Positions 2,964-6,802 of a stretch of DNA of 15,809 nucleotides are shown in pieces. Position 1 is the stretch's first letter. The number at the start of each line of letters is the position of its first letter. Source of the DNA: Chloroflexota bacterium (GTDB taxonomy: Bacteria > Chloroflexota > Limnocylindria > Limnocylindrales > CSP1-4); assembly GCA_021802185.1 (NCBI GenBank), contig JAKAAV010000007.1, positions 1 to 15,809 of the forward strand, in the 5' to 3' direction. The position numbers and the translations under genes were made by a program. The notes beneath the pieces are model-generated. The model saw nothing but the letters and a program-made list of their open reading frames with translations. It was not told the DNA's origin and did no database searches.

Positions 2964-3001
2964 GGTGTCGGTGGGTCGTGCGGGTGCGTAACTCAAGCGA
3001 A

Positions 3002-3027
3002 GGCCCCCGGAGAAGATTCCGAGGGCC
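3002..3027. terminator. Bidirectional hairpin terminator between convergent units
   Basis: GGCCCCCGGA (3002-3011) pairs with TCCGAGGGCC (3018-3027) around a six-base loop (GAAGAT), giving a 10-bp GC-rich stem with one non-Watson-Crick position. It lies 38 bases past the stop of the + strand membrane protein and 17 bases past the 3' end of the - strand tRNA, where a shared terminator is expected. The T tracts are short: GTTTCG on the + side and CTTCGCTT read on the - side. Confidence 0.65.
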
Positions 3028-3044
3028 GTTTCGTGCGTGGATTC

Positions 3045-3121
<77 letters not shown>

Positions 3122-3129
3122 ACGCCGGG

Positions 3130-3138
3130 ATTCTATCA
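3130..3138 (-). promoter_or_regulatory. Extended -10 element for tRNA-Pro
   Basis: On the - strand the bases read TGATAGAAT. This is a TAGAAT -10 hexamer (five of six to TATAAT) preceded by TGN, the extended -10 form. Initiation about 7 bases on would fall near 3123, next to the tRNA 5' end at 3121. No recognisable -35 lies 17 bases upstream, which extended -10 promoters can tolerate. It is one of the few AT-rich spots in the area. Confidence 0.42.
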
Positions 3139-3222
3139 GAGCCCGACCGGCCGCCCGCGGGCCGGGCGCTCGTCGTGCGAAACTGCGATCACCGGGGCTG
3201 AGGGACGACGTCCATCCGGCCG

Positions 3223-5052
3223 TCACCGCCCGCCGCGCCGCGCGCCGCCGCTCGGGCCGCGCCCCGGACCGGATGAGCGGCCCGTGCCTCGCGGCGCGCC
3301 GCCCGAACCGGATCGCCGAGAGGCGGTGACGCCACGCCCCGGCGCCCGGGACGATCCCCTCCCCCGGCGCCGCTCGATCTGTGCGCGCGAGCGCGTCCGG
3401 AACACGAGCCGGATCGGGGTGCCGCCGAAGTCGAACGCATCCCGGATCTGGTTCTCGAGGTACCGCGCGTAGCTGAAGTGGACCGCGTCGGCGTCGGTGA
3501 CGAACAGCACGAAGGTCGGCGGCGCGACCGACGCCTGCGTCGCGTAATAGAACTTCACGCGCACGCCCTTCACCGACGGCGGCGCCTGGCGGAACGTGGC
3601 GTCCGCGAGCAGACGGTTGAGCTCGCCCGTGGGCACCCTGCGTCGCCGCTGCGCGGCGATCTCGAGGGCATCGTCGAGCACGCGCCCGACGCGCTGGCCG
3701 GTCTTCGCGCTGATCGCGACGATCGGGGCGAAATCGAGGAAGTGCGCCTCGCGGCGGAGCGCCGCCACGTACTCGTCGAACGTGTTCGGCGTCTTCTCCA
3801 CGAGGTCCCACTTGTTCAGCGCGAGGACCAGGCCCTTCCCCTCCTCGATGACGTAGCCCGCCACGTGCGCGTCCTGACGCGTCAGCCCGTCGATGGCATC
3901 GATCACGAGGATCGCGACGTCGCAGCGGACGAGCGCCCGGAGCGCCCGCAATGCGGAGAACCGTTCGGAATCCGGGCCGCCCGCCACGCGCCCGCGCCGG
4001 CGCATGCCCGCCGTGTCGATCAGCGTCACGGGCCGCCCCGTCCACTCGATCTCGGTGTCGATGGCGTCGCGCGTCGTGCCCGGGATGTCGCTCACGATCA
4101 CGCGCTCCTCGCCGAGCAGCGCGTTCAGCAGCGACGACTTCCCGACGTTGGGACGACCGACGATCGCGACTGCGACGGGCCGCTCGGCCGCCAGCCGGTC
4201 GGCCTGGGTGCGCCGATCCCAGGCCGCGGCCTCGGCATCCTCGCCCTCCTCGCCGGCCTCCTCGCCCGCGACGTCGGTCTCGGCCGGTCCGGCGCCCACC
4301 CCAGGCTGCGGGCCATCCGTCCCCGGCTCATCGTCGTCCAAGTCGGCCAGCCCGAACTCGCCCGCCGACAGCCCGCGTGCGTCGGGCCGATCGTCGTCCT
4401 CATCGGCCTCCATCGCGCGCGCCGCCGGCAGCTCGACGCCCTGCGCATCGGCCAGTGCCTCGAGCTCGGCCAGGTCCTCGGCCTCGGCCTCGCGTCGCCT
4501 GCGCTCGACCTCCTCCTCGCTCTCCGGAGGCAGCGCCCATACGACGGCGTCGAGCAGGTCGCCCGTCCCGCGGCCGTGGAGCGCGCTCACCGCGTACGTC
4601 TCGTCCCAGCCGTACCGGTGGAACTCCGCGGCCTCGAACTCGCGCCGCTCGCTGTCGGCCTTGTTGGTCGCGACGATCACGGGCACTCGCGCGCTTCGCA
4701 GCAGCTCGGCCGCCTCCTGGTCCGCCGGCGTCTCGCCCGCTGCGGCGTCGACGACGAACAGGATGACGTCGGCCTCGGCGATCGCGAGCCGCGCCTGCTC
4801 CTGGACCTTTGCCTCGATCGGATCGCCCGGGCGGCGTTCGAGCCCGCCGGTGTCGACCACGACGAACCGGCGACCGTTCCACTCGGCCTCGCCGTACAGC
4901 CGGTCGCGGGTCGTCCGCGCACGGTCCTCGACGATCGCGGTCCGCTCGCCGACGATCCGGTTGAACAGCGTGCTCTTGCCGACGTTCGGGCGTCCGACGA
5001 TGGCGACGATGGGAAGCCCGCGCGCCGGACGGACCGATGGACGGGCGACCAC
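3223..5052 (-). CDS. der: Ribosome-assembly GTPase Der (EngA), with long acidic linker
   Basis: Der is a tandem-GTPase essential for 50S ribosomal subunit maturation. Both GTPase domains are intact. The first has GRPNVGKS at 20-27, DTGG at 67-70 and NKAD at 130-133. The second has GRPNVGKS at 299-306, DTAG at 345-348 and NKWD at 412-415. A KH-like domain follows at about 455-555. The 609-residue length exceeds the usual ~440-490. The excess is a ~115-residue acidic linker between the GTPases (about 177-290) and a ~50-residue Arg/Gly/Ser tail. GTG 5052 is chosen because GGAGG (5058-5062) lies five bases upstream and the ispH stop ends one base before it. A longer frame from GTG 5112 would run 20 residues into ispH. 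Identity is certain; the start is likely. Confidence 0.96.
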
Positions 5053-5057
5053 CTCAG

Positions 5058-5062
5058 CCTCC
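5058..5062 (-). promoter_or_regulatory. Ribosome binding site deciding the der start
   Basis: GGAGG on the - strand, five bases before GTG 5052, lies inside the last codons of ispH. It favours the short Der start over the upstream in-frame GTG at 5112, which has no such site. Its placement implies that der translation is coupled to ispH. Confidence 0.6.
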
Positions 5063-5560
5063 GGCGTGTGCGCGCGCGCCGCCGTCCGCGGCACCGGCGT
5101 CGAACATGGCACTGCGGGTCGGGACGCTGCTCGTGCGGTACGTGGAAGCCGCGACGCGGCCCAGGGAGGAGGCCGCGAGCTCCGCCGCGTTCTCGCGCGC
5201 CTCGGGCGTCCCCGCGAGCTCGTAGATCCGGCGCGTGACGACCTGAAGATCCTCGATCGGGGTCGAGGTGCCGCCCGTCACGCCCACGACCTGCGCGTCC
5301 CCGAACGCGCTCGCATCGGCCAGGTCGTCGGCCGACTCGATCTGCAGGACCGGCGTCCCGGCGATCTGGCAGAGGCGCGTGAGCTCCTTCGTGTTGGCGC
5401 TGCTCCGGCCGCCGACCACCACCATGAAATCGACGCCCTCCGCCGCCTCCATCGTGTCCTGTTGGCGCCGGATCGTCACGGGGCAGATCGTGTTGACGAT
5501 CTTCAGCTCATGGCACCGGCTCACGAGGAACGCGGCCAGCTTCTCGAACTTCCACGGCGG

Positions 5561-5563
5561 CTA
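5561..5563 (-). other. In-frame amber codon within ispH
   Basis: The + strand bases CTA read TAG on the coding strand, at codon 166 of ispH. One transition (CAG to TAG) would explain it. The reading frame is the same on both sides, so this is a substitution and not an indel. The next in-frame start candidate downstream is GTG 5524, which has no Shine-Dalgarno, so independent translation of the C-terminal part is not supported. Confidence 0.9.
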
Positions 5564-6088
5564 CGTGCTCTGACTGATCAGCGCCATCCGCTTCGTCCGC
5601 GGGATCCGGGCCCAGTCCTCCTCCTCGTCGACGACGATCGCGTCCGGGGCGAAGCCGAGGAGCCCGACGACCTCGGGGTGCTTCGGCGTCCCGAGCAGGA
5701 CGATCGTGTACCCGTCGGCGACGAGCGACTCGAGCGCGCGCTGCTCCTGGATCACCCACGTGCACGTGCCGTCGATCACCTCGAGGCCGCGCGACTTCGC
5801 CCTGTCCATCACCTCCGGCGTGACGCCGTGCGCCCGGATGACGACGGCGCTCCCCTCCTGCACCTCGTCGAGTGTCCCGACAGTGCGGATGCCCTGCGCC
5901 TCGAGCTGCTCGATGACGCCTTCGTTGTGCACGACCTGGCCGAGCGTGTGGGTCTTCTTGCCCTCGGCAGCCGCGGTCTTCGCGTAGTCGATCGCCTCGC
6001 GCACGCCGTAGCAGAACCCCGTGCGGCGCGTGATGACGACGTCTCGTACCTGTCCCATGGAGCCTTCATTGTCCCACGGCCGCGCCGA

Positions 6089-6802
6089 CTACGGCGTTCC
6101 AGCCTCCGGGGCCGGCTCTCTCGTGCGTTCCAGGACCGCGCGCACGACCGCGTCGACGGCCTCGGAGAGCTCGAAGCCGTCGGTGCGGATCACGATCGCG
6201 TCGCGGGCGATGCGCAGCGGGGCCATCTCGCGCCCGCTGTCGATCGCGTCCCGCTTCCGCAGGTCGTCGAGGACCAGCCTCGCCTCGGTGCCGTCCCGTT
6301 CGTCGTCCCGGATGCCGCGCTCGAGGCGCCGCCGGCGTGCCCGTTCCGCGAGCGACGCGTCGAGGTAGATCTTCACGTCCGCATCCGGGAGCACGACCGT
6401 GCCGATGTCCCGACCGGCCACGACGATCGACCCATCCCGGGCGAGCACGCGCTGGCGGGAAAGGAGCGCCGCGCGCAGCTCGGGCTGGCGGGCGACCTCC
6501 GAGACGACGCGGTCGATCGACGGGCGATGGACGAGCGCGGTGACCTCGCGGCCGTCCGCCCGAACCCGCACGTACCGGCCGCGACGATCCGATTCGAGCT
6601 CGAGCAGCGGGACGAGCGCGGCAAGCGCCGGCCCGTCGTCGAGCGGCACGTGCCGGTGCAGCGCGAGCCACGCTGCGGCGCGGTAGAAGAGCCCGGTGTC
6701 GCAGAACCTGAATCCGAGGCGTTCGGCCGCGAGCGCGCCGACCGTGCTCTTGCCGCTGGATCCCGGGCCGTCGACGGCGACGACGAGCGGGCGAGGCGTC
6801 AT
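6089..6802 (-). CDS. cmk: Cytidylate kinase
   Basis: This enzyme phosphorylates CMP and dCMP to the diphosphates using ATP, in cytosolic pyrimidine salvage. The 237-residue protein is of usual length. It has a P-loop GPGSSGKST at 12-20, then CDTGLFYRAAAW in the nucleotide-binding region. The acceptor-site motif VAGRDIGTVVLPDADVKIYLDAS follows, then the arginine-rich lid (ARRRRLER). ATG 6802 is well supported: GGGGAGG (6809-6815) lies six bases upstream, and ATG overlaps the rluB stop (ATGA). It ends in TAG, unlike most neighbours. The stop is followed in the same frame by ten sense codons and then the ispH ATG, so cmk and ispH would be one reading frame without this stop. Confidence 0.95.
   Translation of the reverse strand: MTPRPLVVAVDGPGSSGKSTVGALAAERLGFRFCDTGLFYRAAAWLALHRHVPLDDGPALAALVPLLELESDRRGRYVRVRADGREVTALVHRPSIDRVVSEVARQPELRAALLSRQRVLARDGSIVVAGRDIGTVVLPDADVKIYLDASLAERARRRRLERGIRDDERDGTEARLVLDDLRKRDAIDSGREMAPLRIARDAIVIRTDGFELSEAVDAVVRAVLERTREPAPEAGTP

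Follow-up and report, generated by a model that had tools for sequence, protein, structure and literature searches.

An in-frame TAG private to one metagenome-assembled genome in an otherwise intact Chloroflexota ispH gene is most likely a sequence error

Results

The ispH locus and its neighbours

The window, that is, the whole 15,809-nucleotide stretch of DNA that was analysed, is contig C361 of the Chloroflexota metagenome-assembled genome (MAG) G000 (2,549,596 bases, 450 contigs, 76.34% complete, 2.74% contaminated). Among the named genomes of the collection, those closest to G000 are Chloroflexi MAGs. The window carries on the minus strand a gene for IspH (LytB), 4-hydroxy-3-methylbut-2-enyl diphosphate reductase, the enzyme that completes the MEP pathway to isoprenoids. 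This gene (positions 5054 to 6058) runs from an ATG at 6058 to a stop at 5054 and comprises 334 codons plus the final stop. Its translation shows a sole internal stop, a TAG at codon 166 (5561 to 5563) between ISQST and PPWKFEKL. The 5' part (5564 to 6058, residues 1-165) encodes Cys16, Cys99, KHPEV and QST, and the 3' part (5054 to 5560, residues 167-334 and the final stop) encodes Cys192, SSAN and GGTSTP. Both sides of the TAG match IspH models. The PF02401 alignment spans the TAG in one piece, with 255 bits against a cut-off of 24.5 and one TAG counted, and TIGR00216 matches residues 1-165 (1.5e-40) as well as the downstream frame 5054-5524 (4.2e-21), each piece falling below the full-length cut-off. 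The gene is thus like the IspH/LytB family in its three cysteines, its motifs and its profile match across the stop, and unlike it in that a TAG at codon 166 breaks what should be one uninterrupted frame. These results bear out the sequence-only reading, which had described the TAG as the only lesion of an otherwise intact ispH, with the Fe-S cysteines 16, 99 and 192 and the SSAN motif all present. Codon 166 lies in the middle of the contig, and the window contains no N bases.

A product ending at residue 165 would be without Cys192. PMC8837944 describes three IspH domains that each supply one cluster cysteine, and states that T167 of E. coli IspH stabilises the hydroxymethyl group of the substrate and bonds to E126; in our reading, this threonine falls in the QST-like motif of the window's IspH. 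The first start codon past the break is a GTG (5524) that reopens the frame as ORF 5054-5524 after 12 lost codons, and re-initiation there would give a split, two-piece IspH. Against such an arrangement, residues PPWKFEKLAAFL would be lost, the break comes directly after the conserved QST and ahead of Cys192, and none of the relatives compared has a stop at codon 166. A truncated or split IspH is therefore unlikely to work, in line with the doubt already expressed about a two-piece enzyme, and we give the split enzyme almost no credence.

Downstream of ispH, the open reading frame list places on the same strand a gene (open frame 3223 to 5112) that we take, from its two GTPase motifs, to encode a Der/EngA-like GTPase. 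This frame and the end of ispH share positions 5054-5112, so that the two genes are probably translated in close succession, and the stop inside ispH could lower der expression. The upstream gene, also on the minus strand (6089 to 6780, start approximate), is presumably cytidylate-kinase-like, judging from its sequence. At the opposite end of the window from ispH lies an open frame (106-687) that by its sequence we assume to be sigma-factor-like. A long open frame overlaps it and ends in a TAG at 2961-2963, shortly before a tRNA-Pro that lies on the other strand; this TAG was confirmed as the sequence-only reading had described it.

ispH is probably essential in the G000 lineage

PMC11218510 calls both the MEP pathway and ispH essential, and reports that E. 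coli ispH, itself essential, was deleted in strains supplied with a mevalonate operon. One ispH copy was found in G000. A second copy, which the sequence-only reading had listed among its four options beside an error, a recent nonsense allele and readthrough, was not found in the assembled 76% of this genome. The 55 other genomes with an ispH match have one copy each, that of G018 being cut at a contig end; G040, from the same order, has an extra partial LytB match (G040:C117:4256-4555, profile positions 1-95) besides its full copy. All 21 genomes searched have a match for ispG, whose G000 copy is uninterrupted. For HMG-CoA reductase, 21 genomes, including 9 with a completeness of 90% or more, gave no match. 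Since HMG-CoA reductase is unmatched throughout, ispH is probably essential in this lineage, and with one ispH, an intact ispG and no HMG-CoA reductase match a true ispH null would be expected to be lethal. The assembly lacks about 24% of the genome, and the window's ispH could be supposed dispensable if that portion held a second copy or genes for a different isoprenoid route; however, the single copies of the 55 other genomes (G040 alone having an extra partial match) and the lack of an HMG-CoA reductase match make this extremely improbable.

Codon 166 is a sense codon in all covered relatives

Codon 166 was compared across 99 loci, made up of 29 related loci from the 55 other genomes with an ispH match and 70 further loci; some genomes fall in both sets, and 81 of the aligned sequences are distinct. 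One locus (L101) leaves the codon uncovered. In the remaining 98 it is CAG (88 loci), CAA (8) or ATC (2), meaning that a sense codon is present in every case, with Gln at residue 166 in 96 loci and Ile in 2. The alignment with relatives thus supports two earlier proposals, that Gln is the family residue and that the TAG arose from CAG by a single transition. The two ATC codons are those of L007 and L015 (class-level relatives G057 and G059, family f4) and indicate that the family tolerates a residue other than Gln. An ispH match was obtained in 56 of 61 genomes, G000 included, and an internal stop in G000 only; the six other genus members with a match all have CAG at codon 166. Other stops in the relatives' alignments are confined to the C-terminal tail (query residues 288-331). 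The best solved homologue by sequence, 3dnf, which we take to be from Aquifex aeolicus, has Gln in the residue-166 column, and so does the intact relative L032, which matches 3dnf over residues 6-283. The TAG is a single transition away from the common codon and is private to G000 in everything compared; a stop isolated in this way is what the sequence-only reading had said would point to an assembly artefact.

The closest locus, L032, lies on a 36,655-base contig. Its DNA identity to the window is about 84% over positions 2994-6708, which contain ispH and der, and 77-81% over the other aligned stretches. Up to residue 165, IspH shares 99% of its residues with that of L032 (8001-9023); identity over the remainder is clearly lower. 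Both proteins have a longer C-terminal tail than five other aligned genus members. In a further Chloroflexi MAG (fen_1046), ispH is found as two overlapping pieces in different frames (L083, 3115-4105). This gene apparently carries a private frameshift near residues 146-182, which suggests that sporadic lesions of ispH do turn up in MAGs.

Constraint is not relaxed after the stop

Changes on the branches leading to G000 and to its sister lineage were polarised and counted base by base, as raw counts, over residues up to 314. After the stop, the G000 lineage has 4 nonsynonymous and 6 synonymous changes against 3 and 6 in the sister lineage; before the stop, the G000 lineage has 1 and 9 and the sister lineage 0 and 6. 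Changes of ambiguous assignment (11 nonsynonymous, 45 synonymous) were left out of the count, and codons 86, 276 and 289, changed twice, add spurious steps to these counts. No relaxed constraint was seen in the part after the stop in these counts up to residue 314, meaning that the lesion arose very recently, does not exist in the organism or is bypassed by readthrough.

A very young lesion would be a real nonsense allele of the sampled population, carried by dead or non-growing cells or by a minor strain whose base won the consensus, and yielding an inactive 165-residue product without Cys192 and SSAN. The absence of relaxation suits such an allele, the change is one transition from the codon of most relatives, and the remaining sampled genome is clean (see below). 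However, with one ispH copy found and no HMG-CoA reductase match in 21 of 21 genomes the allele would presumably be lethal, and a lethal change should not dominate a population consensus. We regard a recent nonsense allele as the second-best reading, though a rather unlikely one; it would look identical to a consensus error.

The sampled genome is clean and uses TAG as a stop

The general quality of G000 was judged from 36 of its 450 contigs (370,471 bases, window included), compared with 1,642,710 bases of the same-genus relative G002. Genes were found by codon usage, with a finder trained first on the window and then again on the sample, and gene starts were trimmed. The alignment of 171 G002 genes to G000 (58,390 codons, median identity 87.8%) contained three stops, of which only that of ispH has both flanks conserved (20/20 and 18/20 identical residues). 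The stops in L147 (2 and 4 of 20 identities beside it) and L182 (9/20 identities before, only 3 residues after, near the end) were rejected as lying in poorly matching tails. These 171 genes were free of frameshifts. With the roles of the two genomes exchanged (183 genes, 61,424 codons), a single stop turned up, close to the start of an alignment, and again no frameshift. The window had been put in the sample by choice, and the lesion-free result therefore applies to the other 170 genes; it cannot separate error from mutation, yet it speaks against a genome that is poor throughout or recoded. Early counts of 45 and then 24 stops in G000 were discarded because in this GC-rich DNA long antisense or shifted open frames had passed as genes. 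A codon-usage count of 12 stops in 91 genes was likewise set aside: its frames ran from stop to stop, and the 11 stops besides that of ispH match weakly on at least one side (at most 10/20 identities).

Among 136 gene ends examined, 6 had no stop within the limit, and the 130 conserved ends lined up with G002 use TGA in 102 cases, TAG in 23 and TAA in 5. The RF1 gene prfA is present in G000 (L135, on G000:C39, 2786-3849). Its score is below the family cut-off because ten undetermined bases (L135 3680-3689) cut it in two. Loss of RF1 or a prfA frameshift, which the two pieces in different frames might have implied, was rejected: the 10-N gap sits exactly at their junction and is a scaffold gap. 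Three f2 genomes (G038, G039 and G042) also showed in-frame stops in prfA; these were dropped as well, the aligned region of about 350 residues being stop-free in all three and the stops lying outside the core. Reassignment of TAG throughout the genome, already disfavoured by the sequence-only reading, is thus rejected on stop usage, the presence of RF1 and the clean 171-gene sample, in which there is no second TAG with conserved flanks.

Suppression or readthrough at codon 166

We then considered decoding confined to this codon, in which enough full-length IspH would arise through a suppressor tRNA encoded in the quarter of the genome missing from the assembly, or through leaky reading of UAG by tRNA-Gln. 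As in natural UAG suppression or recoding, a conserved ispH frame continues past the stop; unlike in such systems, the stop is not conserved (0 of 98 covered related loci), no suppressor tRNA is seen, and TAG works as a normal stop, with RF1 present, 23 of 130 conserved gene ends in TAG and 171 genes free of any further in-frame TAG between conserved flanks. No tRNA with a CTA anticodon occurs among the 26 tRNAs found, a weak test given that this list has no Met, Trp, Tyr, Phe, His or Thr tRNA and the genome is 76% complete; a suppressor tRNA could be missing from the assembly. The 100 nucleotides after the TAG fold better than shuffled sequences (z -2.66, 3 of 200 as good), which would favour readthrough, but the same region in the nearest relative, without the stop, folds about as well (z -2.42; five others -0.51 to -1.70), and a special RNA structure was therefore rejected. 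PylS did not exceed the family cut-off in any of 21 genomes, the incomplete G000 among them; pyrrolysine decoding was dropped, since its matches are weak and sub-threshold and 13 of 14 control genomes have them too (one of these exceeding the cut-off). Nothing specific supports suppression or readthrough, which we hold to be very unlikely. We set a lower value still on its most striking form, in which a wild uncultured bacterium would keep IspH alive in spite of an isolated amber codon in this essential gene, by means of a suppressor tRNA or leaky termination encoded in the unassembled part.

One false stop is about what chance would give

In the called frames of G000 (90,246 codons), 2.3% of random single substitutions create a stop, and TAG is the commonest product (12,802 of 18,963). 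Assuming error rates of 1e-5 to 1e-4 per base and a coding length of about 1.9 Mb, the expected number of false stops genome-wide is about 0.4 at the lower rate and about 4.4 at the higher one. One TAG lesion is thus about what an ordinary error rate gives in a draft genome.

Discussion

A TAG stands in the consensus of G000 at codon 166 of ispH, is private to this genome among the sequences compared, and is the only such lesion in the sampled part. We consider it probable that this TAG is a single-base consensus error of a fragmented metagenome assembly. Several observations argue for an error. G000 alone of 56 genomes has an internal stop, with a sense codon in 98 of 98 covered loci; a true null is expected to be lethal; the assembly is a 76% complete MAG in 450 contigs, with 10-N joins in the sampled contigs; TAG is the stop that one random substitution most often produces in G000; the 3' half of ispH has no excess of amino-acid changes on the G000 branch; and another public MAG (L083) also shows an apparent private ispH lesion. 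Against an error, the sampled genes are otherwise clean (171 genes), indicating that errors are not rampant in G000, and the TAG lies mid-contig in a window without N.

Consensus errors and private nonsense alleles are ordinary occurrences in metagenome-assembled genomes. The ispH TAG resembles them in that one base, found in no relative compared, is private to one fragmented MAG; it differs in falling in a gene expected to be essential, and is conspicuous for that reason. If the TAG is indeed an error, the ispH of the living organism is very probably full-length and translated in the usual manner, residue 166 being encoded by a sense codon, and reads or independent sequence would be expected to show that codon.

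Altogether, a sequence error is the most likely source of the ispH TAG; at most it is a mutation of very recent date, rather than a new mode of decoding. A real and tolerated TAG would make ispH a natural example of an essential gene dependent on stop-codon suppression. As the evidence stands, it calls for caution: one private stop in one draft genome amounts neither to gene loss nor to recoding.
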